Assembly (NCBI GenBank): GCA_028293825.1
Contig: JAQGNY010000005.1
Coordinates: 1 to 64,000 of the forward strand
Direction of reading: 5' to 3'
DNA length: 64,000 nucleotides
From: Verrucomicrobiaceae bacterium
Lineage (GTDB): Bacteria; Pseudomonadota; Gammaproteobacteria; Pseudomonadales; CAMLJR01
Of this stretch, positions 13,302-50,358 are shown in pieces. Both the position numbers and the translations under genes were made by a program. Under the pieces are notes generated by a model. It did not search any database, was not told the origin of the DNA, and saw only the letters and a list, made by a program, of their open reading frames with translations. Each line of letters begins with the position of its first letter. The first letter of the stretch is position 1.

Positions 13302-13305
<4 letters not shown>

Positions 13306-14006
13306 TCGAATTCGAGCGGGTATCGAAGCGTTACACCGGCGGCTTCGAGGCATTAAAAGAAGTGAGTTTCGCCATTCCTCGCGGCGAAATGCTGTTTCTG
13401 ACCGGCCGCAGCGGCGCCGGCAAAAGCACGCTGCTCAAATTGATTATGCTGATGGAGCGGCCATCCAGCGGCCACATCGTCGTCAACGGTCATCAGCTCG
13501 GCAAATTGCCTCCGCGCAAAATTCCACTTTTACGCCGCGAGATCGGCGTTGTGTTTCAGAATCACCAGCTTTTATTCGACCGCACCGTGTTCGATAACGT
13601 CGCTCTGCCGCTGATGATTCTGGGTTATCAGCCCAACGAAATCGGCCGTCGCGTGCGCGCCGCGTTGGATAAGGTTGGGTTGTTGAGTAAGGAAAAAAAG
13701 AACCCGCAAACGCTGTCCGGCGGCGAGCAGCAGCGCGTCGGCATCGCCCGCGCGGTGGTGCACAAACCGCCGATTCTGCTGGCCGATGAGCCGACCGGTA
13801 ACCTCGATCCGGAGCTGTCGCGCGATGTTATGCAGCTGTTCGAGCAGTTCAATCAGGTCGGCGTCACCGTATTGATCGCCAGTCACGATCTAGGCTTGAT
13901 CGCGCGCCTGCCGCATCGTCTGCTGACCTTGCGCGATGGCGAGCTGGTGCGCGGCGTCGGCATGTCGAATGAAGAAGGCTTCGACGGAGAGCTGGCTCAT
14001 GTCTGA
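13302..14006 (+). CDS. ftsE: Cell-division ATPase FtsE
   Basis: ABC ATPase that works with FtsX at the divisome to control peptidoglycan amidase activation. The 234-residue protein has Walker [10 protein letters not shown], the signature LSGGEQQR, Walker [13 protein letters not shown] and the switch histidine in IASHD. GTG at 13302 overlaps the ftsY stop as GTGA, and the 3' end overlaps ftsX by 8 bp, so ftsYEX is a translationally coupled operon. Confidence 0.96.
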
Positions 14007-14985
14007 AATGTTGCGCGCCGACGTGCGCAAATCGGCCGCCAGCCCGCGCCGCATCAACCGTCGCGATCGTCTCGCCGCGTATTCATTGCACCATCGTCAG
14101 GTCGCGCGCGATAGTTTGTTGCGGCTGCTGCGCAATCCGTTCGGCAGTCTCGCCACCTGGCTGGTGATCGGTATCGCGCTGGCGCTGCCGGGCGCGTTGT
14201 ATCTGGCGCTCGGCAATCTGGCGCAACTCAGTGGGCGCTGGGATGGCGCGCCGCAAATCTCCCTATTTTTACAGTCTTCATTGGATGAAGCGGGTGGGCA
14301 GGCTCTGCAGCAAAAAATTTCCCGGCGCGGCGATGTCGCTCACGCTGAATATATTTCGCGCGAGCAGGCGCTGGCGGAATTTCGCAGTCAATCCGGCTTT
14401 GGGCAGGTGATCGATCAACTCGAAACCAATCCGCTGCCAGCGCTGATTTCGGTGCGCCCGTTAGTCGGCCAAAGCGGCGCCGATGCGGTGCAGAAGTTAT
14501 TCGGCGATTTGAAGGCGATGCCGGAAGTGGAGCGCGCACTACTCGATATGGAGTGGGTACAGCGCCTATATGCATTGCTCGATATTGGCCGTCGCATTGC
14601 GTTCGGTCTGGCAACGATGCTCGGTGTCGGCGTGGTGCTGGTGATCGGCAATACGATTCGGCTCGCCATCGAAAGCCGTCGCAACGAGATTCTGGTGGTT
14701 AAGTTAGTTGGCGGTACCAATGCCTTCGTGCGCCGGCCGTTTCTTTACACCGGCATCTGGTTTGGTCTTGGCGGCGGCATCGTCGCCTGCCTTATTTTGT
14801 CGATTGCGCTGCTTTGGCTCGGCGATCCGGTGGCACATCTGGCCGCGCTTTATCACAGCGAATACGCGCTGACCGGGCTCGGCGTGGAAAGAGCGATCAC
14901 TCTTTTGGTCGGCGGTGCGCTACTCGGCTGGCTTGGTGCCTGGCTGGCGGTCGGTCGGCACTTGGGAGCAATCGAGCCGCGTTGA
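13999..14985 (+). CDS. ftsX: Cell-division membrane protein FtsX
   Basis: Inner-membrane partner of FtsE. The 328-residue protein has a basic cytoplasmic N-terminus, a first membrane segment (LATWLVIGIALALPGALYLA), a large periplasmic domain that binds amidase activators, and three C-terminal membrane segments. The RLAIESRRNEILVVKLVGGT cytoplasmic loop is typical. ATG at 13999 is selected because it lies in the ftsE end and gives the usual length; the open frame upstream is shadow sequence of ftsE. Confidence 0.95.
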   Translation: MSEMLRADVRKSAASPRRINRRDRLAAYSLHHRQVARDSLLRLLRNPFGSLATWLVIGIALALPGALYLALGNLAQLSGRWDGAPQISLFLQSSLDEAGGQALQQKISRRGDVAHAEYISREQALAEFRSQSGFGQVIDQLETNPLPALISVRPLVGQSGADAVQKLFGDLKAMPEVERALLDMEWVQRLYALLDIGRRIAFGLATMLGVGVVLVIGNTIRLAIESRRNEILVVKLVGGTNAFVRRPFLYTGIWFGLGGGIVACLILSIALLWLGDPVAHLAALYHSEYALTGLGVERAITLLVGGALLGWLGAWLAVGRHLGAIEPR

Positions 14986-15064
14986 GTGTCATAGCTCTGC
15001 GCGCTGAGCTTCTTTCCATCGCTAGCACTTAGAGCCAAAACAACGCTGCTGAACTTTTAGGTCA

Positions 15065-15094
15065 TTAGCACTCTAATTGCTCGAGTGCTAAAAT
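15065..15094 (+). promoter_or_regulatory. CIRCE operator over the rpoH promoter
   Basis: TTAGCACTC (15065-15073), nine spacer bases, then GAGTGCTAA (15083-15091): a perfect match to CIRCE, the operator of the heat-shock repressor HrcA. A possible promoter coincides with it: TTAGCA (15065-15070) as -35 and TAAAAT (15089-15094) as -10, 18 bp apart, so bound HrcA would cover the polymerase site. The element ends 67 bp before the rpoH start. The operator is seen directly; control of rpoH by HrcA is inference. Confidence 0.88.
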
Positions 15095-15158
15095 GCTGCA
15101 ACCTTGATGCGAATCCGGTCTTGTCGGCACGTAGCAAGAATGTCCCAGGAGGATAGCA

Positions 15159-16004
15159 ATGACTCACAATATGATGCCCATACCGATGGTGCCCGGCGGT
15201 AACCTCGCGGCTTACACGCAGGCGGTAAGTGCAATCCCCGTGCTCACTATCGAGCGCGAGCGCGAGCTTGCCGAAGATCTTTACTACAACGGAAACGTCA
15301 GCGCGGCGCGCGATTTGGTCATGGCGCACCTGCGTTTCGTTGTCCACATTGCCAAGTCCTATATGGGCTATGGTTTGCCGCTGGCCGATCTGGTTCAGGA
15401 AGGCAATGTCGGTTTGATGAAAGCGGTAAAACGCTACAACCCGGAAAAAGGCGTGCGCCTAGTCTCGTTCGCGGTGCATTGGATCAAAGCCGAAATGCAC
15501 GAGTTCATCTTGCGCAATTGGCGCATCGTGAAAATCGCCACTACCAAATCGCAGCGCAAATTATTCTTCAACTTGCGCAGCGCGAAAAAACGCCTGGCGT
15601 GGTTGACCAATGACGAAGCGCATGCGGTCGCGCTCGATCTTGGCGTGGCAGTGAACGAAGTTCGGCAGATGGAAGGCCGTCTGGCGGCGAGCGATATGAA
15701 TTTCGATGTTGGCGTCGATGATGACGACGATGCGGTTGCGCCAATTCACTATCTGGAAGATCGTCGCGCCGATCCGGCGTTGCAACTCGAAGAAAGCGAT
15801 TGGGAAGAAAACAGCAATCAACACCTTGAGTTGGCGTTGGAGAAACTCGACGGTCGCAGTCGCGATATTTTAGCCAGCCGCTGGTTGGGTGAAAGTAAAG
15901 CTACGTTGCACGATCTGGCTGATCGCTATGGTGTGTCGGCTGAGCGTATTCGTCAGCTGGAAAAAAATGCGATGAATAAAGTGAAGGCAATTTTAGAGGC
16001 GTAA
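15159..16004 (+). CDS. rpoH: Heat-shock sigma factor RpoH (sigma-32)
   Basis: Directs RNA polymerase to heat-shock promoters. The 281-residue protein has region 2 ([17 protein letters not shown], then [18 protein letters not shown]), the RpoH-specific box QRKLFFNLR, and region 4 helix-turn-helix near the C-terminus ([20 protein letters not shown]). AGGAGG at 15147-15152 is an ideal ribosome site. It follows ftsX, as in most gammaproteobacteria, but with its own promoter and a CIRCE operator. Confidence 0.97.
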
Positions 16005-35316: not shown

Positions 35317-37206
35317 ATGTCTAGTACTTACACCGCCGAATCCATCGAGGTATTGACCGGTCTCGATCCCGTGCGCAAGCGCCCCGGCATGTATACCGAT
35401 ACGTCGCGGCCGAATCATCTGGCGCAGGAAGTCATTGATAACAGCGTCGATGAAGCGCTCGGCGGTCATTGCAACCAAATCGATGTGGTGCTGCACAAAG
35501 ACAATTCGCTGACCTGTACCGATAACGGTCGCGGCATGCCGGTGGATATTCATCCCGAGCAGGGCAAACCCGGCGTCGAAGTTATTTTGTGCACGCTGCA
35601 CGCGGGCGGAAAATTCTCCAATACCAGCTATCAATTTTCCGGCGGCTTGCATGGCGTCGGCGTATCGGTAGTGAACGCTTTATCGAAAGTGTTAGAGGTA
35701 ACGATTCGCCGCGACGGACAGATTTATCGCATGGGTTTCGCCAATGGCGACAAGGCCAGCGATTTGGAAGTAATCGGTACCTGCGGCAAACGCGACACCG
35801 GCACCAGCGTGCGCTTTTCCCCCGATCCCAAATATTTCGAAACGCCGAAGTTTTCGTTATCGCGCCTGCGCCATGTACTGCGCGCAAAAGCAGTGCTGTG
35901 TCCGAAATTGCGGATCACGTTTCTCGATGAAGCCAGCGGTGAACGCGAAGAATGGTTTTATGAAGATGGCCTGCAGGATTATTTGAGCGGCGCCACTGCG
36001 GAGTTCGACGTGCTGCCGGCGACGCCATTTGTCGGCAGTTTTAAAGCCACGCGCGAAGCGGTCGATTGGGCGGTGCAATGGTTGCCGGACGGCGGCGAAC
36101 TTATTACCGAAGCCTACGTGAATTTAATTCCAACCGCGCAGGGCGGCACCCACGTCAATGGTTTGCGTTCGGGCTTGCTTGATGCGATGCGCGAGTTTTG
36201 TGAGTTTCGCAATTTGTTGCCGCGCGGTATCAAGCTCGCGCCCGATGATATTTGGGATCGCTGCTGTTACGTGCTCAGCTCGAAAATGCAGGACCCGCAA
36301 TTTTCTGGTCAAACCAAAGAGCGTTTAACCTCGCGCGAAGCATCTGCCTTTATTGCCGGTGTCACCAAAGATGCGTTCAGTTTATGGCTGAACCAGCACA
36401 CCGAAGATGCGGAAAAACTCGCCGAGTTATGTATCAACAATGCGCAAACGCGGTTGCGTAAGTCGAAACAAGTTACGCGCAAAAAAATCACGTCCGGTCC
36501 GGCGCTGCCGGGAAAGCTGGCCGATTGTTCCGGCAGCGATATCACGCGCAGCGAATTGTTTTTAGTCGAAGGCGATTCCGCTGGCGGTTCGGCGAAGCAG
36601 GCGCGCGACCGCGAATTTCAGGCGATTTTGCCGCTGCGCGGAAAAATTTTGAATACCTGGGAAGTCGATGTGCTCGAAGTATTGGCCTCGCAGGAGGTGC
36701 ACGATATTTCCATCGCGATCGGTGTCGAGCCGGGCTCGGATAATCTCGACGGTTTGCGTTATCACAAAGTCTGCATTCTTGCCGATGCCGATTCCGACGG
36801 CGCGCATATCGCGACCTTGTTATGTGCGTTATTCGTGCGGCATTTTCAGTCGCTGGTAAAAGCCGGTCATGTGTTTGTCGCAATGCCGCCGCTGTTTCGT
36901 ATCGATCTGGGCAAGGAAGTGTATTACGCGCTCGACGAAGCTGAGCGGCAGGGCGTGCTCGATCGTCTCGCTGCAGAAAATAAACGCGGTAAAGTACAGG
37001 TAACGCGTTTTAAAGGTCTCGGCGAAATGAATCCGTTGCAATTGCGCGAAACGGTAATGGATCCAAACACGCGTCGCTTGGTGCGCTTGACCGTCGAAGC
37101 GGGCGACGACACCAATCAGTTAATGGATATGTTGCTTGCGAAGAAACGTGCCGGCGATCGTAAGGCGTGGTTGGAAGATAAGGGCAATATGGCCGAAGTG
37201 ATTTAG
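35317..37206 (+). CDS. parE: DNA topoisomerase IV subunit B ParE
   Basis: ATPase subunit of the decatenating type II topoisomerase. The 629-residue protein has the GHKL ATP site (DNSVDEALGGHC, DNGRGMPVDIH, GGLHGVGVSVVNALS), QTKERLTSRE, the TOPRIM motifs EGDSAGGSAKQARDR and DADSDGAHI, and a C-terminus WLEDKGNMAEVI. The gene is complete: its TAG stop is the last three bases of the 5-bp target duplication of a Tn7-like transposon, which begins at the next base. Gene parC is not in the window. Confidence 0.97.
   Translation: MSSTYTAESIEVLTGLDPVRKRPGMYTDTSRPNHLAQEVIDNSVDEALGGHCNQIDVVLHKDNSLTCTDNGRGMPVDIHPEQGKPGVEVILCTLHAGGKFSNTSYQFSGGLHGVGVSVVNALSKVLEVTIRRDGQIYRMGFANGDKASDLEVIGTCGKRDTGTSVRFSPDPKYFETPKFSLSRLRHVLRAKAVLCPKLRITFLDEASGEREEWFYEDGLQDYLSGATAEFDVLPATPFVGSFKATREAVDWAVQWLPDGGELITEAYVNLIPTAQGGTHVNGLRSGLLDAMREFCEFRNLLPRGIKLAPDDIWDRCCYVLSSKMQDPQFSGQTKERLTSREASAFIAGVTKDAFSLWLNQHTEDAEKLAELCINNAQTRLRKSKQVTRKKITSGPALPGKLADCSGSDITRSELFLVEGDSAGGSAKQARDREFQAILPLRGKILNTWEVDVLEVLASQEVHDISIAIGVEPGSDNLDGLRYHKVCILADADSDGAHIATLLCALFVRHFQSLVKAGHVFVAMPPLFRIDLGKEVYYALDEAERQGVLDRLAAENKRGKVQVTRFKGLGEMNPLQLRETVMDPNTRRLVRLTVEAGDDTNQLMDMLLAKKRAGDRKAWLEDKGNMAEVI
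37202..37206 (+). repeat. Target-site duplication, copy 1 (TTTAG)
   Basis: TTTAG directly before the transposon TGT end, containing the parE stop codon. The same five bases follow the ACA end at 51618-51622. Five-base duplications are the Tn7-family norm. Confidence 0.85.
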
Positions 37207-37293: not shown

Positions 37294-37952
37294 ATGGAAG
37301 CTCGGAAGCCGCCTAGAATGACAACCCCCGCTCGCAAGTTAAAAAGATCCGCTGTTAAGAACATCGTTCGATTTCCCGCCATGAAAGCAAATGGTGGAAA
37401 AACCATCCTCGTTGAATCAATTCTTGAATCTAAGTATTGCCTGCATCTGGAATTCAATCCCGATGTCTTGCGGTATTACCCCAACCCAAAACCTTCAGGA
37501 TTCCAGATGTTGATCTTGGCGAAACGATCTATACGCCTGATTTCGAGGTGCATTACGTATCTGGAGTAATTGGCTTTGTGGAGGTAAAGCCTCTAGCGCG
37601 ATCACGCACCGATCACTATCAGCGGCTTTTCACCTGCTTTGAGTCGATTCTAGATGGCTCTAATGCGGTGTTTTCTGTCGTGGATGAGATTGCCATCGAC
37701 CAACAGCCGAAACTCCATAACTACGAAAAGCTTTATCAATACAGAAAGCGTCCAACATTGGATATGGCCAGACTGCATAATTGCTCGAACTTTAAAAAAG
37801 GAAAAATAAAGTTGGCGAGACTCGTTGCGGATCTCGGAGGGCAAGTTTCGTTGCGTGAAATATATTCCTGGATAGCACTGGGATATCTAATGTTCAACAT
37901 CGATTCTGAGTCGTTGACTATGGCCACAGAGGTAGAATTCCATGTCAGCTGA
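37294..37952 (+). pseudogene. tnsA: TnsA-like endonuclease split by a frameshift
   Basis: TnsA cuts the 5' ends of the transposon so that it moves by cut-and-paste. The first frame reads to LEFNPDVLRYYPNPK, and the family sequence continues in the -1 frame as TFRIPDVDLGETIYTPDFEV, then GFVEVKPL. Glu of VESILE, Asp of TPDFE and Lys of VEVKP give the expected endonuclease triad, but in two frames. The switch falls on C-CCA-AAA (37486-37492), a canonical -1 slippery heptamer, so programmed frameshifting, mutation, or a base error in the A run are all possible. The exact start is uncertain (GTG 37276, ATG 37294 or 37318). The 3' end overlaps tnsB by 11 bp. Confidence 0.8.
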
Positions 37953-39855
37953 ACTTTGGGTTGAAGGTGTAATTATCGAATTTAAAGACGGCAAGCCATG
38001 CAATAGAGCTATGGTGAGAAGGGTTGGAAAGCACGAAATTGTGATTGCCGATATTCAGGATGGTGCGACGTATCGAGTAGAACAATTTGATCTGAATGAA
38101 AAAAAACAACGCGGGGAATTGAGATTTCTTGCGGAGGTTCGTGATTTTGGTGATTTATCGTTCATTGATTTGAGCGAAAAAGAGCAGCGTGAGGTAAATC
38201 GACGCTTTAAGTATATTAGAGGCCTTAAAGAGAATGGCATAGCCAAAATAACGGAAAAAAATGCATGCAATATAATTAAAGAAATAGCCAAAAAACTGGG
38301 AGAAAAATCACCACATTGGCAATCGGTAAGAAGCTGGAATAAAAGCTTTATTGAAGCGGGCCAAAAAATGCGTGGGTTATATCCACGACATCGATATAAA
38401 GGATCTAGAGAATCAAAAATTGATGACAGAGTCGTTGAAATAATCAATCGAGAATCCAGCCGATACTTCAAGCTCAGTCAACCTACAATTGCATCCATAG
38501 TAAGAAATATTGAAGCAAAAATCATCGACCATAACCTCAGCAATCCAGAAAGCCCCCTTAAAGCCCCGACTTTTTTGACAATTCAGAAACGCATTCAGGA
38601 TAAGTCATATCAAAATAAGCAGAAATCAAGAAAGGGAAAACGAACTCTGGCAGCCGAGCTGGCGGGTTCCGATAGTGGCATTGTAACGAGCCGGGTTCTT
38701 GAGCGCGTTGAGATCGATCACACTCAGTTAGACATACACGTTTTACATGATGATCATAAAACCCTTCTGGGTCGGCCATTCATCACCGTTTTAATCGATC
38801 ACCACTCGCATATGGTTCTTGGGTTTCAAATGTCGTTTGAAAATCCTTCATTCGCATCGGTCTGTATGGCATGTATGAATGCCTTCTTACCCAAAGATGA
38901 TTTTATTTCGAAAATGAAGTGTGATTCCAGCTGGCCAGCCCATGGCATTCCGAGCACGTTAGTGACGGATAATGGTAACGAATTTTGGGGGCGCCACTTC
39001 GCATCTGTAGCTGATGAGTTGGGGCCAATATTTCAATACTGTCCGATTAGAAAGGGGAATTATAAAAGTAAAGTTGAACGATTTTTCGGAATGGTAAATT
39101 CGCTCGTGCTAGATGATTTACCTGGAGTCGTCAGAAAGCCTGGTAAATGTGGTGAAGGGTATGACGCTCGTCAAGAGGCCAAGATTACCTTTACCGAATT
39201 CAAGCGATATTTCACGAATTGGCTGACTGAGATTTATCATAATTCACCGATTGATGAAACGGGAATGACTCCAAATGAACTTTGGGTACAATCCGAAGAT
39301 GATTTACCTATTCCATTTGAGAATGAGATGGAATTGATACCGATTCTTATGGCGACAACTACACGAGAGTTAAGTGGGGGCGGCATTAAAATATTCTCCC
39401 TAAATTATGATTCGGCTGTTCTAAAAGACATTTACCGGAGAGACGGCCCCTGCAGCGTAACCGCTAAGTACAACCCCTTTGATATCGGATCAATATTGGT
39501 TTTAGATGACCACAATAAAACATATTTAAAGGTAGATTGCGCGAGATATTCGTACGCTTCAGGGCTGTCTGAGTTTGAAAATAAAAAGATACGAGAAGAG
39601 GCAAGGCGAAATGGTCAAAATAAATTAGAAGATTTCGATTTGCAGCGGGCGAAGGTAAAGCTAGCCGAGGAGCGTGATGAGCTTCACGCGAGAAATATGC
39701 GTCGTAAAACGCAGGTGACTGTATCGAAAGCAGCTAGATCAGAACAAATTGGCGTGGAGTCGCCAAGGCTCGTCATTGACAATACTAAAAATATTACCGT
39801 CATCGCGGGGGAGTTGGACGAGGAGTTGGATCTGGACGGCTGGGAGGTTGAATGA
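37942..39855 (+). CDS. tnsB: TnsB-like DDE transposase
   Basis: RNase-H-fold transposase that binds the ends and joins 3' ends to target. In the 637-residue protein the DDE residues are Asp in VERVEIDHTQLD, Asp in TLVTDNGNEFWG and Glu in KSKVERFFGMVNS. N-terminal DNA-binding helices precede, and a Mu-transposase-type C-terminal beta-barrel (DRRDGP-like YRRDGPCSVTAKYNP) follows, with a charged C-terminal tail that in Tn7 contacts TnsC. Codons are AT-rich compared with parE. GAGG lies ahead of the ATG. Its stop overlaps tnsC as ATGA. Confidence 0.95.
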   Translation: MSAELWVEGVIIEFKDGKPCNRAMVRRVGKHEIVIADIQDGATYRVEQFDLNEKKQRGELRFLAEVRDFGDLSFIDLSEKEQREVNRRFKYIRGLKENGIAKITEKNACNIIKEIAKKLGEKSPHWQSVRSWNKSFIEAGQKMRGLYPRHRYKGSRESKIDDRVVEIINRESSRYFKLSQPTIASIVRNIEAKIIDHNLSNPESPLKAPTFLTIQKRIQDKSYQNKQKSRKGKRTLAAELAGSDSGIVTSRVLERVEIDHTQLDIHVLHDDHKTLLGRPFITVLIDHHSHMVLGFQMSFENPSFASVCMACMNAFLPKDDFISKMKCDSSWPAHGIPSTLVTDNGNEFWGRHFASVADELGPIFQYCPIRKGNYKSKVERFFGMVNSLVLDDLPGVVRKPGKCGEGYDARQEAKITFTEFKRYFTNWLTEIYHNSPIDETGMTPNELWVQSEDDLPIPFENEMELIPILMATTTRELSGGGIKIFSLNYDSAVLKDIYRRDGPCSVTAKYNPFDIGSILVLDDHNKTYLKVDCARYSYASGLSEFENKKIREEARRNGQNKLEDFDLQRAKVKLAEERDELHARNMRRKTQVTVSKAARSEQIGVESPRLVIDNTKNITVIAGELDEELDLDGWEVE

Positions 39856-40856
39856 TGGATCAGAATATTTCAACAAAGCCATTTGTTTATTTTCCTAGAA
39901 TAAATGAGTTGTTCTCTCTTTTTGATTTGTTGCGTGATCAAAATATTAGGCATGACGCAGTTTCATGTGCATTGATAACCGGCGAGTCAGGTAGTGGAAA
40001 AAGTGAAATTGCCTCTCGCTACGTTTTAAAAAATCCCGTAGTTGAGGAAGAGGAAAGAACCTTTAAGCCGGTTGTTTGGTATGAGTTGAAGTCGGTTTCT
40101 AACCGTAAAGATTTCATCATAAAGCTGCTTATAGCGATTGGGGATCCTCAGCTAGGTAGAGGTGCGAAAAACGAAGGTGAGCTCTACGATAGGCTTATAT
40201 TACAGTGCCGTGTAATTGGGTTGGAGCTGCTGATTTTAGATGAAATTCAAGTGATCATAGAAAGACGAAGTCAGAGTGTAATTTCTGTTCTTGCGGATTT
40301 GTTCAAGGACTTAATTAAAGATCTAGGTATTCCCATCGTTTTTATGGGGATGCCATGGAGTAGGCACTTAATAGATTCAAATAAGCAGCTCAGAGGGAGA
40401 ATAAGCTATAGACACGTGATCCCATCTTTCCGTGTGAGTATGCCCGAATATTTGAACGAGTTTAGAAAACTATTAAAAAAGCTATCTGATCATTATCAGT
40501 TATCAGAAGATGTTGGAATTTATAAGCAAGATATGGCGCTGAAAATATTTTCTTTTTCAAGCGGAAACTTGAGGGATACGGTAATACTCGTGCGCGATGC
40601 ATATACTCAATCATGTCGCGATGGTAAGGCTGTTTCGTCAGCAACATTTAAGAAAGTTTTGCGGGGCTATGGAGTCCCAGATGAGCAGAATCAATTTATC
40701 CAACAGTTAGAAAGATTGCAATTTAGAGAGCTGGTATGTCATTCAGACTGGAATTTCGGAGCAAGGACTAAAGAGAATTCCATAGTTGATGGAAAGTACG
40801 TCACATTTGGTGTTTCAACGGATAGGAAAATATATAGCTTTCATGGGGCAGCATAA
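39852..40856 (+). CDS. tnsC: TnsC-like AAA+ ATPase
   Basis: Target-site regulator that links TniQ/TnsD to the transposase. The 334-residue protein has Walker A ITGESGSGKS, Walker B LELLILDEIQ, a sensor at IVFMGMP and the arginine-containing GRISYRHVIPSF segment, as in TnsC/TniB. It is shorter than Tn7 TnsC, resembling TnsC of TniQ-type elements. The second ATG at 39855 is better spaced from GGAGG (39843-39847) than the first at 39852. It overlaps tniQ-1 by 14 bp. Confidence 0.93.
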   Translation: MMDQNISTKPFVYFPRINELFSLFDLLRDQNIRHDAVSCALITGESGSGKSEIASRYVLKNPVVEEEERTFKPVVWYELKSVSNRKDFIIKLLIAIGDPQLGRGAKNEGELYDRLILQCRVIGLELLILDEIQVIIERRSQSVISVLADLFKDLIKDLGIPIVFMGMPWSRHLIDSNKQLRGRISYRHVIPSFRVSMPEYLNEFRKLLKKLSDHYQLSEDVGIYKQDMALKIFSFSSGNLRDTVILVRDAYTQSCRDGKAVSSATFKKVLRGYGVPDEQNQFIQQLERLQFRELVCHSDWNFGARTKENSIVDGKYVTFGVSTDRKIYSFHGAA

Positions 40857-41955
40857 GGTCTTTAATTTAATTTATCGAGGAATTAAAAAAAAGGATGAAC
40901 TTACTATTGATTACGTCCAGCGCTTAGCCAGAATCAATGGGTTTTCAAAAATTGAGATATTTGAAAACTATCTCGAGCGAACATATCATTTGAACTGTTG
41001 CGATTCCAATGGCTCGAGTAAGTACAATAAATGCAGAATTGCTTTGGAGGGAATTTTAAAAAGGAATATTCCAGAAGGCTGTCTTGATAGAATTAGATTG
41101 GGAAAGGGAAATAGTTGGTCTAAATGCGTAAAGGTTTGTAAGGCTTGTTTGCAGAAGAGCGATTACATTCGATTTTATTGGAGGCTTCGTAATTATAAAA
41201 AATGCCATCTCCACGGCGACTGGCTTATTCCATTGGCGGAAGAGTTGGATGATTTTAGTAAAGATGACGCTGAATTTGAAAAATATCCACCACTTTATAT
41301 TTATGAATTAATTGACTCAAGTCTAGATGATGAAAAATGTCAGGATAAAATTGTAGATGAATTAGAGATGGTTGAATACGAGCGGGCAATAATACGTGCG
41401 CTAAAACTAAATCTATCGTTAGACGGCGTGTATAAATTAGATTTTTCAAAGGCTTTTGCTGGATCAGCATCAGGAAGATATTTAGGGTTGTCTGCACAAG
41501 ATAGAGTTTTCACCATTGTTCACGATCTTGATTCGACAGGTCTGTACAAGCAGGTATTGCTTAGAGTTATAGCGTTGATGATTTGCAATCCGCGGCGAGA
41601 AGGTGCTTTTTGTAAAATAACATGGAGGGAAAAGCATGACGATTATCGTAGATTTTCTATGTTATTTCTTGGATCAGATAATCTGCTTTCTGCACTGTTG
41701 TATAAAATACGTGATTTTTCGTCTTTGGATATTGATGAGATTCCGATTGTAGATCTTGTGGACGGAGGGTGCGTCGGGGTCGATCTTTTAAGCAAAAAAA
41801 TTAAGTTGGCTTCGTATTATTGTAGGTTTTTTGATAGTGATGTGGCGGAGTCTTTAAGGATGGAATCAAGCCTAGTAGGCGGTCCTCATCGAAAGCCTAG
41901 TTTGTATCAGCGGTTTTTAATATCAAAACGCCTTGGTTATAAATTAAAGCTTTGA
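40843..41955 (+). CDS. tniQ: TniQ family target-selection protein 1
   Basis: A 370-residue protein. The TniQ domain is recognised by DELTIDYVQRLARINGF near the N-terminus and the zinc finger CKACL ... CHLHGDWLIPL. The remainder is helical without a motif I recognise. TniQ proteins bind DNA or partner complexes and recruit TnsC to targets. ATG at 40843 is inside the end of tnsC; the longer frame upstream is shadow sequence. Confidence 0.85.
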   Translation: MGQHKVFNLIYRGIKKKDELTIDYVQRLARINGFSKIEIFENYLERTYHLNCCDSNGSSKYNKCRIALEGILKRNIPEGCLDRIRLGKGNSWSKCVKVCKACLQKSDYIRFYWRLRNYKKCHLHGDWLIPLAEELDDFSKDDAEFEKYPPLYIYELIDSSLDDEKCQDKIVDELEMVEYERAIIRALKLNLSLDGVYKLDFSKAFAGSASGRYLGLSAQDRVFTIVHDLDSTGLYKQVLLRVIALMICNPRREGAFCKITWREKHDDYRRFSMLFLGSDNLLSALLYKIRDFSSLDIDEIPIVDLVDGGCVGVDLLSKKIKLASYYCRFFDSDVAESLRMESSLVGGPHRKPSLYQRFLISKRLGYKLKL

Positions 41956-41966
41956 AGGTCATATAG

Positions 41967-43436
41967 GTGTTGTTATCCAGGCCAAATTTGCACTTCGATG
42001 AGTGTCCTGTAAGTTATCTGATCAGGGTATGTGAGCAGAATGGTTTCCGGCATATAGGCCATTTGCTGCATCATGGAGGGTTATCCTGGAAGAATGCGCG
42101 AGCACCAGTGCATCAAATTCTAACTGGCGAGTTCGATTTATCGTAATATCTTATTAATTTAGGTCTCGATCATCCACTATTTAAAACTGCTGAAATATAT
42201 TCGACTTTTCGTCGAGTAATTGATACTCCGCATCTTTTTGTAAAATACCCCAGGGTGTGTCCAGAGTGCATTGCCGAAAATGGATATTGTAAGTTGCAGT
42301 GGGCCATTCTTCCTATTTTAGCGTGTGTACAACATAAGCGGATGTTAGTCGATACTGAAAGAGAAACTGGGGACAGGTTGGGTTGGTATAGGGGAAAAAT
42401 TGATAAGTTCTGCCATGCACTAAAACAGGTGAGGCCTGGCCAGCAGCCTATTTCACCATCTGTTCTCCAGTTCAGCAAATACTTTGAATCATTAATCTTA
42501 AAGAGCGGGGTGTGTGCAAAACCGCCGTCCGCGATGTCTGAATTGGGCTTTCGTGAAGCGCTAACTATGTTCAATTTTCTGGCGCACTATCAAGCACGAT
42601 TGCTAGGTGACGCTTTTTCGCCGGTTTCGTTAGATGGCTACTCGCTAGCTAAACACTATGATGGCGTTTGGCGAATGATATGTAATTGGCCTGACGATTT
42701 TTATTTTATGCTCAGCCAGTATATTGATAATCCAATGAGTGCGAGAGGAGTCTCCGGAGTCAATAAGCACTATCGAGATTTATACGAGCGCCTGCATCGA
42801 CAGCAGAGGAATGAAGGCGTCGCACGAATAAAATTTGAGTTTGACCGCTACATCCAGACCTACTGGCCTGGACTTCTTGAGGCGGATCGCATGACCAGAA
42901 TTAATTTAATATTGCCAAGGAGTCGTATTGTTTCAAAAAATGAAGCGGCCAGAATCATAGGATGTCGCCCTGAGCGTATAGATAAGTATGTTCGAACCGA
43001 AAGGCTGTCCCGAATTATATTTAAAGGAAAAGCGCATTATAGCCGCTGCGAAAGTGAGAAATTGGCGAGCTTAATATCATCTAACTGGACGGTAACCGAA
43101 GCTTGTGAGGCGTTGCAGATTACTCGTTACCAGCTCAAGCAGTTATTGGATGCAGAAGTATTCCCTGCCATTCAGCGACCGAATAAATTTGATCGGGATT
43201 GGATTGTTGACAAGGCTCGATGTCAGTTTTTGGTGGATAGGTTACTTCTGCGTGTTGATGTTTTGGGCGCGAGGGAATTGTCCTTGTCAATGGGTGGTAT
43301 CCAAAGACGGGGGTTTTCGATCGTACAGCTAATTTCTGCTATGCAGTCTGGCCACTTAGAATTCAGTGTGCGTCCAGATAAGACGCATCCGTATAGCTTG
43401 AAGCAATTTACGTCGTTTAAATTAAAGTTAGTATGA
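41967..43436 (+). pseudogene. TniQ/TnsD-like protein 2 with in-frame stop
   Basis: GTG at 41967, with GAAGG 8 bp upstream, opens a TniQ frame: LLSRPNLHFDECPVSYLIR then VCEQNGFRHIGHLLHHGG. After 59 codons a TAA (42144-42146) interrupts it, and the same frame continues with LGLDHPLFKTAEIY, zinc-finger CPECIAENGY ... CVQHKRML and two C-terminal helix-turn-helix-like regions (SKNEAARIIGCRPERIDKYV; TVTEACEALQITRYQLKQLL). Read through, it would be 489 residues, the size of TnsD. I infer that this was the parE-recognising protein. Translation of the second part could restart at 42255 (GTG). Confidence 0.82.
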
Positions 43437-45575: not shown

Positions 45576-46865
45576 TTGACAACTGGCGATTACCTCGATC
45601 TATTTGACGCGAGCGAGCTTTCTCGTGAGCGATTTTCTGATCTCAAAGATAATTCTTTCTGGAACAACTCCAGTGAGAAGGAGCTCAAACTTCATCGCAT
45701 ACACGCGTATCCTGCGAAGTTCCCCGCATTTATCACATCGAAAGCTTTTGATTATGCTGCGGCCCATAATATTAAGGTAAAAACAGTCGCTGACGTTTTT
45801 TGCGGTTGCGGTACGGTAGCCTTTGAAGCAAGAAGAAATTCGATTGATTTTTGGGGTTGCGACATTAATCCTGTTGCAACGCTAATTGCCACAGCGAAAA
45901 GTAATTCTTATACATTAAAAAAATTAGAAGATTATTATGAAAAAATAATGATCGCTTTTCCTCGCGCCAGTAAAAAAGTTGATCTAACAAAAAGTGCCAT
46001 TGAGCGCCTGAATTATTGGTATCACCCTGAGCAGCTCCATGATTTAGCGAAATTGCTGAATGCAATAAATGGAACTGTATCTACTCGCAGCCATTACCGC
46101 GCTTTTTTTCTCTGCGCATTTTCAAATATTCTTAAATCCGCATCAAGGTGGCTTACGAAATCAATTAAGCCACAGATTGATCCGGTTAAGCAGCCAGCTA
46201 ATGTATTGGCTGCGTTTTCCGTACAATTTTCTTCGATGGTTCGTGCGTGGGAGCAGACAGATTTAAGCTCTACAAGCACCACAAAGATCGTAAACGCTAA
46301 TGTTTTGGAAATTAGTGCACCTCCAAAAGCAATCGATATGATCGTGACGAGCCCGCCTTACGTGACATCATACGAATATGCCGATCTTCACCAGTTGTCC
46401 TCGCTTTGGCTTGGATATGCTTCCGACTACCGAGATCTGCGCACAGGCTCAATAGGTAGTACGCAGCACTCATTGGACTTTAATAGGGAAGTTAAACGCT
46501 TAAACCGCGTTGGATCCGAAATCGTATTCAGTCTTTTCGATCGAGATCGAGCGATAGCTAAATCGACGGCGAAATATTTTCTGGATATGCAGCAAGTGAC
46601 TAAGCGTTGCTATAAGTTTTTAAAGCCAAAAGGGCTTGCGCTATTTGTTATTGGAAATACCGAATATAAAAGTATACGTATCGATAATGCTGCGCATTTA
46701 AGTGAATCTCTCCTCGGTAGTGGATTTTCCAAAGTCCGTGTGGCGAAACGACGCATTACAAATAAAATACTTACGCCGTATAGAACTGAGCAGGGAAGGT
46801 TTACTCGAAGTGATACTGGCCGCCATGTTTATGGCGAAGAATTTATCTTGATTGCGTCCAAATGA
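45576..46865 (+). CDS. DNA methyltransferase, N4-cytosine/N6-adenine type
   Basis: A 429-residue SAM-dependent enzyme. Motif I is VADVFCGCGTVAFEA (about residues 71-85), then WGCDINP; the amino-methyltransferase catalytic motif IV is TSPPY (residues 258-262), followed by SYEYADLHQLSSLW. HRIHAYPAKFPAFI at residues 40-53 is typical of this group of DNA methylases. No restriction endonuclease gene is next to it. Start is TTG at 45576 with a strong GGAGGGG 5 bp upstream. Its stop overlaps the next start as ATGA. The recognition sequence is unknown. Confidence 0.88.
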   Translation: MTTGDYLDLFDASELSRERFSDLKDNSFWNNSSEKELKLHRIHAYPAKFPAFITSKAFDYAAAHNIKVKTVADVFCGCGTVAFEARRNSIDFWGCDINPVATLIATAKSNSYTLKKLEDYYEKIMIAFPRASKKVDLTKSAIERLNYWYHPEQLHDLAKLLNAINGTVSTRSHYRAFFLCAFSNILKSASRWLTKSIKPQIDPVKQPANVLAAFSVQFSSMVRAWEQTDLSSTSTTKIVNANVLEISAPPKAIDMIVTSPPYVTSYEYADLHQLSSLWLGYASDYRDLRTGSIGSTQHSLDFNREVKRLNRVGSEIVFSLFDRDRAIAKSTAKYFLDMQQVTKRCYKFLKPKGLALFVIGNTEYKSIRIDNAAHLSESLLGSGFSKVRVAKRRITNKILTPYRTEQGRFTRSDTGRHVYGEEFILIASK

Positions 46866-49111
46866 CTCCTAAAAATTTACAGTTCCGCCCTTACGCTAGA
46901 TTGCTAACAATGCTTGGCGATCAACTGATTAAGAACGAGCGAATTGCATTAATAGAAATCCTTAAAAATTCATATGATGCCGACGCATCGTGGGTAAGGG
47001 TTACATTTGATGGATTTGGGGATAATTTTGAACATAAAACTGGCGCCAAAATAATCATTGAAGATGATGGCGTTGGCATGACTGAGGAAGTAATAGTAAA
47101 TCATTGGGTTAATCCGGCGACCCCGCTCAAAAAAATCGGGAAAGTCTCTAATGACGAAACTGTCAAAGGCAGAAAAATTCAAGGTGAGAAGGGTATTGGC
47201 CGATTCGCCATACTCAAGCTGGGTAAGAAAGTTACGATTACTACTAGGCCAAAAAAATCCAATCTTGAGTATGAGTTAAAACTAGATTTTTCAGCTTTTG
47301 ATGATGACTTTCTCAAAGAAAATGGCCGCGAAAATGTTAAGTTTTTGGATGAGCTGAATATAGATTTTTCCGAGTCTGATCAGCCTAGATTTATGCAGGC
47401 AAAAGAAATTACTTTGGGTGCAAGAAAGTTCAAGCGAAAGCCGCAGGGTACCCGCATTGAAATATCCCACTTAAAAGGAGTTTGGAGTACAAAAAAGGTC
47501 GAAGAGGTTTACAAGGATTTGGTTCGATTGCAGTCTATTTTTGATGACCAACCTGAGGACGAGTTCGAAACCTCTTCCAGTACAGCTTTTAAGGTCTTTA
47601 TATATCAGGGAGATCACTATAAAAACCTCTCCGACCAATACCTTAGTAATCTGCAAACCCTTATAAAAGAAAATTCAGTATTTCGAATAGAAAAAGGAAT
47701 ATATAACGAAAGTTCGAAAGAGTTTGTTTTTAGCTTGAATGGACAGGAAAAGCGTTTGCCATTAATGGATCCTGAAATCTCCGGTATGCGAATATTTCGC
47801 GAACGGTTTGGAGATGGTGCTGAGGAATTGTTGCTTCGCGGGACAAAGTGTGGGTCATTCTCTTTTGGCTTTTATATTTTTGATTTTAGTTCTGATGCGA
47901 AAGGAAGGTATGAGCTAGATAAGAGCGACAAGAGCATTATCAAAGAGCATCGAATATATTTGTACAGAGATAATATTCGGGTATATCCATACGGTGACCC
48001 GGAGGACGACTGGCTTCAGATTGATGCATATCGCGGCACTATTAGTGCGGGTCAGTTTTTAAGTAACGATCAAGTTGTTGGGTTCGTAAACATCACTCAG
48101 TCTGAAAATCCTCAACTAACCGACAAGACAAACCGTGAGGGCTTGATTGATACGGGAAATCCAACCTCAGATTTTCTATGCCTGATAAAGCTTTTTTTAG
48201 CCTGGGTGCGGAAAAAGCCATACGCGCAATATCGCGCGTCTGTGGCAGTAAAAAATGAAGTTGAGATATTTAAGAAAAATCAAGTTACTGAAGGAATCCA
48301 ATCTCTCGAGAAAATTGTCGAGGACAGCAAGCCCGCTAAAGAAGCGCTTTCGGAGATATCTAAGCTTTATAAAGCTGAGCGGAACTATTTAGTTAAGCGT
48401 GCAGAGACAACTGAGCATTTGGCAGGTGTAGGCCTTTCTGTTGAGACAGCATCCCATGACATTATGGCTGTAATGGGGCGGCTGCTCGCGATAAACGATG
48501 GCCTCATACGAGAGACCAATGGCAGGGGAGAGGTAAATAAGGAAGTAATTAACAGGGAGCTTACGACAATGCGCGGCATGCTGTCATTTGTCGAGTCTCA
48601 ACTTAAAGACCTTCAATTACTTTTTAAGTCCACGAAACAACGCCGCAAAGATATTCGTGTCCGTGAGGTGATCGAAAAGGTGCATCGTCTTTTCGCTGGT
48701 GTTCTTTCTAAGCAAAATATTGGATTTGATATTTTAGAAAAAGGCTCCCCGTTAGTCGCGAAGACAACGGATGCCGTCCTGCTGCAACTATTGCTTAATT
48801 TATTCGACAATTCGATATATTGGCTTCAAACAAAGCACGATGGCAAAAGAAAAATAGAAGTCCTTCTAGATGGTGATGAGTCCTGCTTTGTTTTTTCTGA
48901 TAACGGGCCGGGAATTAAATCGGATGACGCTCCTTATATATTTGAGCCCTTTTATTCTGGTCGCGGTGAGGAAGGTCGAGGGCTTGGACTTTATATCGCG
49001 CGACAGTTGTTAGATCGTCATGACTATGCGATTGATCTGGCTGATATAAAAAGCCAAAAAATATTGCCCGGTGCCAATTTTGTAGTTTCGTTTGTGAAGG
49101 ATGACAAATAA
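46862..49111 (+). CDS. Dual-GHKL ATPase/histidine kinase
   Basis: A 749-residue cytosolic protein with two GHKL nucleotide-binding modules. The N-terminal one is Hsp90/MutL/MORC-like: ALIEILKNSYDADA (29-42), DDGVGM (68-73), GEKGIGRFA (108-116). The C-terminal one is a histidine-kinase core: phospho-acceptor His532 in ETASHDI, N-box LFDNS (Asn650), DNGPGI (680-685), FEPFYSGR and GRGLGLYIA. No membrane segment or PAS sensor was seen. Its position between a methylase and a receiver protein (overlaps 4 and 1 bp) implies one system. Its likely role is ATP-dependent DNA sensing plus phosphotransfer to the receiver; that is inference. Confidence 0.85.
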   Translation: MTPKNLQFRPYARLLTMLGDQLIKNERIALIEILKNSYDADASWVRVTFDGFGDNFEHKTGAKIIIEDDGVGMTEEVIVNHWVNPATPLKKIGKVSNDETVKGRKIQGEKGIGRFAILKLGKKVTITTRPKKSNLEYELKLDFSAFDDDFLKENGRENVKFLDELNIDFSESDQPRFMQAKEITLGARKFKRKPQGTRIEISHLKGVWSTKKVEEVYKDLVRLQSIFDDQPEDEFETSSSTAFKVFIYQGDHYKNLSDQYLSNLQTLIKENSVFRIEKGIYNESSKEFVFSLNGQEKRLPLMDPEISGMRIFRERFGDGAEELLLRGTKCGSFSFGFYIFDFSSDAKGRYELDKSDKSIIKEHRIYLYRDNIRVYPYGDPEDDWLQIDAYRGTISAGQFLSNDQVVGFVNITQSENPQLTDKTNREGLIDTGNPTSDFLCLIKLFLAWVRKKPYAQYRASVAVKNEVEIFKKNQVTEGIQSLEKIVEDSKPAKEALSEISKLYKAERNYLVKRAETTEHLAGVGLSVETASHDIMAVMGRLLAINDGLIRETNGRGEVNKEVINRELTTMRGMLSFVESQLKDLQLLFKSTKQRRKDIRVREVIEKVHRLFAGVLSKQNIGFDILEKGSPLVAKTTDAVLLQLLLNLFDNSIYWLQTKHDGKRKIEVLLDGDESCFVFSDNGPGIKSDDAPYIFEPFYSGRGEEGRGLGLYIARQLLDRHDYAIDLADIKSQKILPGANFVVSFVKDDK

Positions 49112-50358
49112 TGCCGCATAGAAGCCTTTTTTATGGAGCAGCCGTTTTTATAGACGATCATTTTCATGCGGGTGATCCGCGGGTCACATCTATCAAAGAG
49201 CAGATAGAGCAGGCTGGTTGCCATGTGGTGGGAATGACAGGGTTGCCCAAAGAAAATAGCTGGGAAAATCTTAAATTTGCCTCGTTTTTTATTGTTGACT
49301 GGAAGTTGCACGAAGGAAGTTTTACAGATGAAGGTGGTGTTCCAATGGCGCGAGCATCTGAACAGCTAGATGCGCAGCATGTTGCCGAAACCATTGAGTT
49401 CTTGAAGAAGTTAAAAGAAATTAGATTTGCGCCGGTATTCATTTTCACAAATGAGGATGTGGAGTCGGTCCAAGAGCACATAAAGAAATGCCCCGAATTA
49501 AATGGTGAGAGTGGTCCATCTCATATATTCGTTAAAAATAAATCTGAGGTTCTCGAACGTGGTGTATTCGATGTCCTCTCTGATTGGCTAAAAACCGCTC
49601 CATCGGCCTATGTTCTCAAAAGATGGGAGCAAGAGTATGAGCGCGCCAAGAATGCTTTGTTTTTGGATTTTTACAACAAAAGCGTTTATTGGCCGTTGAT
49701 TATGTGGAAAACTTTTGAGCAAGATTCGGTTCCTCAATCTATTGAGTTAGGCAATCTAATCGGAAGAAATTTAGCGTCACGTATGACACCTTTCGATTTT
49801 GATTTAGGCTCATATGTAGATGCTTTCGACGCACATATGCCAGTCAATCAAAATGAATATCGCGCCATGCTACAAAAAGTATTGTCGGGTGAACGGTTTT
49901 TAGATATTAAGTATTTACACGAAAGCTCAGTTTCTCCAGGTGATATTTTTTATGATGGGAAAAAGTATTACTACATTAATGTTCGACCTGAATGCGATTG
50001 CTTCCCCAGAGGGGAGGTTCAGCTTGATGACTTACCTATTTATCTTTTGAGGGGCGCTAAACTTAGCCATACAAAGACTATAGAGAAGTATGACAAAGCT
50101 TATGGTTCATTACGCGAAAGTGATAATGAAGCGGTTTTATTTGGATTGTTGCCCGATACTACAATAAGTTTTCGTTTCAGCGATTTAAAGATTGAAGTTT
50201 GGAAAGATTGGAAGGAGAAGCGTATTGGGCGCTTATTGCCTCCCTTCCTAACTAGGCTACAGCTTCGCTACTCTGCATATCTTCAGCGACCAGGGCTTCC
50301 TCGTGTTCCGCCAGAAGCGATAAAGCCGATAGAGGAGAATCAGCAAGCGACTCAATAA
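49111..50358 (+). CDS. Receiver-domain protein with unknown C-terminal half
   Basis: A 415-residue protein. The first 145 residues have the response-regulator constellation: AVFIDDHF (acidic pair 15-16), FFIVDWKL (phospho-acceptor Asp63), VFIFTNED (Thr113) and HIFVKNK (Lys142), at receiver spacing. Residues 160-415 match nothing I know; they include an acidic/aromatic region and INVRPECDCFPRGE. A winged-helix or effector domain cannot be recognised. The start overlaps the kinase stop as TAATG. It is the probable phosphorylation partner of the upstream kinase. Confidence 0.75.
   Translation: MPHRSLFYGAAVFIDDHFHAGDPRVTSIKEQIEQAGCHVVGMTGLPKENSWENLKFASFFIVDWKLHEGSFTDEGGVPMARASEQLDAQHVAETIEFLKKLKEIRFAPVFIFTNEDVESVQEHIKKCPELNGESGPSHIFVKNKSEVLERGVFDVLSDWLKTAPSAYVLKRWEQEYERAKNALFLDFYNKSVYWPLIMWKTFEQDSVPQSIELGNLIGRNLASRMTPFDFDLGSYVDAFDAHMPVNQNEYRAMLQKVLSGERFLDIKYLHESSVSPGDIFYDGKKYYYINVRPECDCFPRGEVQLDDLPIYLLRGAKLSHTKTIEKYDKAYGSLRESDNEAVLFGLLPDTTISFRFSDLKIEVWKDWKEKRIGRLLPPFLTRLQLRYSAYLQRPGLPRVPPEAIKPIEENQQATQ

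Follow-up and report, generated by a model that had tools for sequence, protein, structure and literature searches.

HrcA with its operator CIRCE and the heat-shock sigma factor sigma-32 (RpoH) are usually presented as separate heat-shock systems, meeting at groE if anywhere. In Bacillus, HrcA requires GroEL for its activity. Known components of the arrangement considered here are HrcA and CIRCE themselves, sigma-E acting at rpoH, and a CIRCE predicted at rpoH in one case. The closest described case is Geobacter sulfurreducens, for which a perfect CIRCE was predicted at position -51 of rpoH in a genome with hrcA, and where groESL and hrcA-grpE-dnaKJ are also CIRCE targets (Rodionov 2004, PMC545781). 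In Agrobacterium, groE is under both RpoH and HrcA (cited in PMC11764788), and the P3 promoter of Escherichia coli rpoH is a sigma-E promoter, according to a review (PMC8103513).

In this study, we analyse the rpoH upstream region within a 64 kb window, the whole stretch of DNA under analysis, together with the 4.34 Mb genome from which it comes and with genomes of the same order, the same class (Gammaproteobacteria) and beyond. The locus resembles that of G. sulfurreducens in its perfect CIRCE near rpoH, in the presence of hrcA and in having groESL as another target. However, the Geobacter case is a prediction for one delta-proteobacterial genome, in which hrcA-grpE-dnaKJ has a CIRCE, whereas a genome-wide pattern search at up to three mismatches found none at hrcA here; and the available part of that account (PMC545781) describes neither a sigma-E overlap nor a wider pattern, whereas here CIRCE is found next to rpoH almost constantly across the class sample. 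As in Agrobacterium, the two systems meet on a heat-shock target, but they meet there at groE (PMC11764788) and would meet here at the gene of the sigma factor itself. Searches of an open-access library yielded no account of a class-wide pattern linking rpoH to HrcA and no report of a CIRCE that shares bases with a sigma-E promoter; Permina and Gelfand (2003), on beta- and gamma-proteobacteria, may hold part of either.

The original prediction placed a perfect CIRCE before rpoH, and one is present without a mismatch (Table 1), with the rpoH start 67 bp downstream. At up to three mismatches it is the single match in the window, and 100 shuffles gave none. The same search of the whole genome returned two CIRCEs, one at rpoH and one at groES, both with 0 mismatches. 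Because a reversed control pattern matched three places in the genome at this loose setting, the evidence lies in the two perfect copies rather than in the number of matches. A chance palindrome is ruled out by the shuffles and by the conservation across relatives described below. The repressor gene, on whose presence the prediction depended, is encoded on another contig (PF01628, E 7.5e-60; TIGR00331, 321 bits against a cut-off of 197); by visual inspection, the next reading frame downstream is GrpE-like. A sigma-32 promoter before hrcA was considered and rejected, its closest match having four mismatches. RpoE (sigma-E) is also encoded in the genome (TIGR02939, 317.6 bits, cut-off 236).

Table 1. 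Positions of genes and regulatory elements at the rpoH locus of the window
Feature	Position	Strand	Sequence or basis
ftsE, upstream neighbour	13302-14006	+	TIGR02673 over cut-off
ftsX, upstream neighbour	14014-14985	+	TIGR00439 over cut-off; start codon uncertain
Sigma-E type -35	15050-15056	+	TGAACTT; consensus GGAACTT
CIRCE (HrcA operator)	15065-15091	.	TTAGCACTC-N9-GAGTGCTAA, 0 mismatches; arms 15065-15073 and 15083-15091; loop TAATTGCTC
Weak sigma-70-like -35	15065-15070	+	TTAGCA; within CIRCE left arm
Sigma-E type -10	15072-15076	+	TCTAA; spacer 15; last two bases of CIRCE left arm plus first three of loop (TAA)
Sigma-70-like extended -10	15086-15094 (hexamer 15089-15094)	+	TGC-TAAAAT; CIRCE right arm plus AAT
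Probable ribosome binding site	15147-15152	+	AGGAGG; read from sequence
rpoH, sigma-32 heat-shock sigma factor, 281 aa	15159-16004	+	TIGR02392 394 bits (cut-off 323); NF005143 over cut-off

Elsewhere in the window, a gyrB/parE-type gene (35317-37206) precedes a stretch of low GC content (37942-43436; 0.42-0.46, against mostly 0.52-0.59 elsewhere). It looks like a Tn7/Tn5053-like transposon: one encoded protein carries a Mu-transposase C-terminal domain (with rve scoring only below cut-off), another is a TniB-type ATPase, and two frames that have no match in Pfam are TniQ-like by position. At 45576-50358, PADLOC type II models identify a DNA methyltransferase; a second protein combines two GHKL ATPase domains with weak similarity to a restriction enzyme model, and a 415-aa frame matches nothing in Pfam or PADLOC. 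These genes are possible transposon cargo and possibly a defence module.

The CIRCE is interlocked with promoter elements. Sigma-E promoters follow the consensus GGAACTT-N15/16-TCTRA, from which TGAACTT-N15-TCTAA (15050-15076) departs by one mismatch. The exact pattern with N15 matches once in the genome, at rpoH, and about two matches genome-wide are expected by chance (an estimate); a single match is no enrichment, and the case for sigma-E therefore rests on conservation. TTAGCA-18-TAAAAT (15065-15094) agrees at 9/12 positions with TTGACA/TATAAT set 16-18 apart; its -35 is weak and a TG precedes its -10. The overlap of the operator with an rpoH promoter, as first proposed, holds for this sigma-70-like pair, but the main promoter, of sigma-E type, had been missed. 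Positions 15050-15094 can be read as a putative composite rpoH promoter, in which an HrcA operator, a sigma-E promoter and a sigma-70-like -10 are interlocked. Judged from the -10 elements, transcripts would start near 15082 with sigma-E and near 15101 with sigma-70. Since the candidate sigma-E promoter also lies under the CIRCE, three inputs, HrcA, sigma-E and sigma-70, may converge at rpoH. Two further candidates were rejected: a sigma-32 promoter at rpoH, whose closest match has five mismatches, and an RNA thermometer in the rpoH leader, where the stability of the 15082-15220 fold does not exceed that of shuffled sequences (z +1.22). Further rpoH promoters may exist.

The other CIRCE of the genome (C51:28844) lies 138 bp ahead of groES. 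The same groES carries a sigma-32-like CTTGAAT-N13-CCCCATAT, one mismatch from consensus, and groE in the source genome seems to be under both the HrcA and the sigma-32 systems. At this locus (L003, 1501-1562) the CIRCE lies on a sigma-70-like promoter and the sigma-32-like promoter lies behind it.

We compared the layout of 124 rpoH sites whose CIRCE had at most two mismatches (105 class and 19 order genomes) with that of 24 groES controls, the loci with a groES motif within 500 bp among 39 CIRCE loci inspected. The two sets share the operator and, presumably, the repressor, but the operator is placed differently. At groES, a sigma-70 -10 enters the start of the operator: a TAnnnT -10 runs into the first base of CIRCE at 22/24 groES sites versus 8/124 rpoH sites, and the rpoH layout is therefore its own. 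At rpoH the promoters enclose the operator, with a -35 before it, the sigma-E -10 within it and the sigma-70-like -10 at its end; aligned on CIRCE, the 124 sites give the consensus ggaactt-N9-TTAGCACTCtaA-N6-GAGTGCTAAaAT. A sigma-E -35 ([GT]GAA[CT]) starts 14-17 bp before CIRCE at 82/124 rpoH sites and at 0/24 groES sites, whereas shuffled flanks gave a mean of 1.7 and a maximum of 7. By this criterion it is absent from the remaining 42/124 (among the order genomes, from G039). The A at loop position 3, the last base of the sigma-E -10, is found at 99/124 rpoH versus 1/24 groES sites; a sigma-E -10 would demand just such a non-random loop at rpoH. A T three bases past CIRCE occurs at 112/124 versus 4/24 and is missing from 12 rpoH sites; 75/124 rpoH sites have both this T and the -35, and 5/124 have neither.

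These counts bear on an alternative reading, in which HrcA represses rpoH but sigma-70 alone transcribes it, the GGAACTT and TCTAA elements being a relic or a flank that HrcA prefers. Of the two promoter signals, the T that follows CIRCE (TAAnnT) is the commoner, at 112/124 against 82/124, as that reading would have it. However, the -35 keeps a nearly fixed offset, lying exactly 16 bases before CIRCE in 61 of the 82 sites that carry it, and it is found at none of the groES CIRCEs. With the genomes that lack hrcA also considered (see below), we regard a non-functional sigma-E part as unlikely, and keep to a promoter with both sigma-E and sigma-70 elements.

The survey of relatives drew on two samples. 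The class sample comprised 184 genomes from 165 genera and about 150 families; RpoH was found at E 1e-60 in 173, CIRCE with at most two mismatches anywhere in 135 and hrcA in 133. Upstream regions of rpoH were read in 147 class genomes, with G000, G021 and G035 counted in the order sample instead; the lowest-scoring RpoH matches fall outside the 147, except for G145 and G065, which were included. The order sample comprised 56 genomes from 46 families, with hrcA in 20 and CIRCE at up to two mismatches in 21, in 19 of which it lies just before rpoH. At this threshold, CIRCE at rpoH tracks hrcA in both samples, in 101/113 genomes with hrcA versus 4/34 without detected hrcA in the class (Fisher p 2e-17) and in 17/20 versus 2/36 in the order (p 1.7e-9), p values that overstate independence because the genomes are related. 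Allowing three mismatches raises the class counts to 107/113 and 6/34, so that the hrcA-bearing class genomes without a site fall from 12/113 to 6/113. Letter-shuffled upstream regions came no closer than four mismatches in 2,940 trials. Some of the sites without detected hrcA (4/34 and 2/36) may be due to incomplete assemblies. The three hrcA-bearing exceptions in the order are G001 and G029, with three mismatches each, and G023, a partial rpoH match that spans residues 114-277 only and lies near a contig end, its start region not properly read. For genomes with two rpoH copies, the CIRCE copy was counted in G084 (one mismatch; eight in the other), and the counted copy of G212 has three mismatches (seven in the other). 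In G062 (L314) the rpoH upstream region has tandem CIRCE-like palindromes, TTAGCAGTC-N9-GAGTGCTAA and a perfect copy. G004 has a second rpoH-like gene (C22:351240-352031, L159), 44% identical and situated some 10 kb away from hrcA; its contig, C22, has no CIRCE listed.

Conservation upstream of rpoH, which had been put forward as a check, is thus evident in both samples, and together with the presence of hrcA it supports the proposed link between rpoH and a chaperonin-sensitive repressor. The accompanying view that rpoH is an uncommon neighbour for HrcA and CIRCE did not survive the survey, in which the pairing is near-constant across the class sample; a peculiarity of the source genome alone is likewise ruled out. 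Outside the class but within the same phylum, 37 best-match upstream regions were read, and a CIRCE with at most two mismatches was found in 1/26 genomes with hrcA, counted by hand (G243; G237 has four mismatches), a count that may be too low because many of these genomes carry several rpoH-like genes, of which one each was read. Because of this low count the link between CIRCE and rpoH looks typical of the class and sporadic elsewhere, as in the Geobacter sulfurreducens prediction. As the layout recurs in most of the hrcA-bearing relatives sampled, it looks like old, shared wiring and no oddity. In our judgement, from sequence comparison, HrcA quite probably represses a composite sigma-E/sigma-70 promoter of rpoH, an old feature of the class that has mostly been kept with hrcA and eroded upon its loss.

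A different role for the palindrome, as a stem-loop in the transcript that affects the stability or translation of rpoH mRNA instead of, or besides, serving as HrcA-bound DNA, would be feasible if it were transcribed from further upstream, for example by read-through from ftsX. Yet the presence of CIRCE tracks hrcA, the leader folds no better than its shuffles, as noted above, and both proposed promoters overlap CIRCE, so that their transcripts would begin within or past its right arm. A mainly transcript-borne role is accordingly very improbable, and we retain HrcA-bound DNA as the preferred reading.

Named loci give a closer view of the relatives. The motif was wanting in 5/110 loci, which were skipped, none of them among the 80 named. 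Among the best 80 of the matches listed, CIRCE has at most one mismatch in 28, which include Haliea, Halioglobus, Parahaliea, Pseudohalioglobus and Sediminihaliea; of the remainder, three have three mismatches and 49, among them all loci with Pseudomonas or Cellvibrio sp. in the title, have at least five. The CIRCE before rpoH is perfect in two marine isolates, Parahaliea mediterranea DSM 21924 (L085) and Pseudohalioglobus sediminis (L062). All 31 named loci with up to three mismatches matched a -35 pattern looser than that of the 124-site test. The closest RpoH among these 80 (79%) belongs to a gammaproteobacterial MAG (L034), which is identical in the slice compared to the sister genome G001. 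This match points to the class of the source genome and, in GTDB terms, to the order of Pseudomonas and Cellvibrio. Their rpoH upstream region reads TTGGCAGTC-N9-GACTGCTAA, both arms being altered in step at one paired position, and because of this paired change a shifted HrcA specificity is possible. That these nearest relatives have a three-mismatch version, although hrcA is present in G001, could also mean that the CIRCE is a relic and that rpoH is no longer under HrcA control in the source species. However, 18/18 operator positions are intact in the source and 15/18 are kept in G001, whereas the 45-base flank before the operator is identical at only 15/45 positions (ungapped). We give the relic reading very little weight, the least of those considered, and continue with an operator still in use.

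Of 64 genomes in which neither hrcA nor a CIRCE of at most two mismatches was detected, 19 keep a sigma-E match (loosened pattern, at most one mismatch), enough sequence after that match also being needed for inclusion. G003 and G017, which have an intact CIRCE, and five genomes with short slices were excluded from the initial set of 26. In the 19 genomes, in-register matches to the left arm number 66, compared with 33.2 in shuffles (sd 4.9; 0/2000 reach 66), and those to the right arm 60, compared with 45.0 (sd 5.6; 11/2000 reach 60, and a right-arm shift of +15 ties at 60). This looks like an eroded CIRCE, with a clear left arm and a modest right arm. G046, G002, G034 and G038 exemplify a sigma-E promoter with an apparently decayed in-register operator and no detected hrcA.

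E. coli shares the gene order ftsE-ftsX-rpoH with the source genome and has GAACTT-N16-TCTGA upstream of rpoH, which fits the sigma-E promoter P3 (PMC8103513). Both this promoter and the sigma-E matches retained in the 19 hrcA-less genomes speak against transcription by sigma-70 alone. E. coli differs from the source genome in having no CIRCE in the ftsX-rpoH gap, where the best match has 8/18 mismatches; a recognisable CIRCE relic at this site was accordingly rejected. The HrcA profile matched 7/14 control genomes, E. coli being among those without a match. We somewhat favour the view that in an hrcA-bearing ancestor of the class rpoH was under HrcA at one promoter, in which its operator shared bases with a sigma-E promoter, and that the E. 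coli/Pseudomonas circuit is a descendant without HrcA in which the operator has decayed.

A regulatory cycle can be proposed for the composite promoter. While free GroEL is sufficient, HrcA would be active on CIRCE, RNA polymerase with either sigma factor would be blocked and rpoH expression would stay low. Misfolded protein that occupies GroEL would cause HrcA to leave CIRCE, since HrcA needs GroEL in Bacillus, and overload of the chaperonin would in this way lift repression. With HrcA off, sigma-70 would transcribe rpoH, as would sigma-E, more strongly, under envelope stress. Sigma-32 would then boost groESL, and HrcA would be restored and shut groE and rpoH again. This would amount to a feed-forward loop, in which loss of HrcA acts on groES both directly and via sigma-32 and which GroEL closes, and the envelope-stress input of sigma-E would reach rpoH only as far as HrcA permits.

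The repressor appears to gate the promoter of rpoH, together with sigma-E, in most of the hrcA-bearing genomes sampled, across many families. The sigma-E -10 carried in the CIRCE loop is a possible explanation for why that loop is non-random at rpoH. If the proposal is true, a single promoter of 45 bp would couple chaperonin load and envelope stress to the heat-shock regulon of the cytoplasm, and the circuit of E. coli would be a simplified case.
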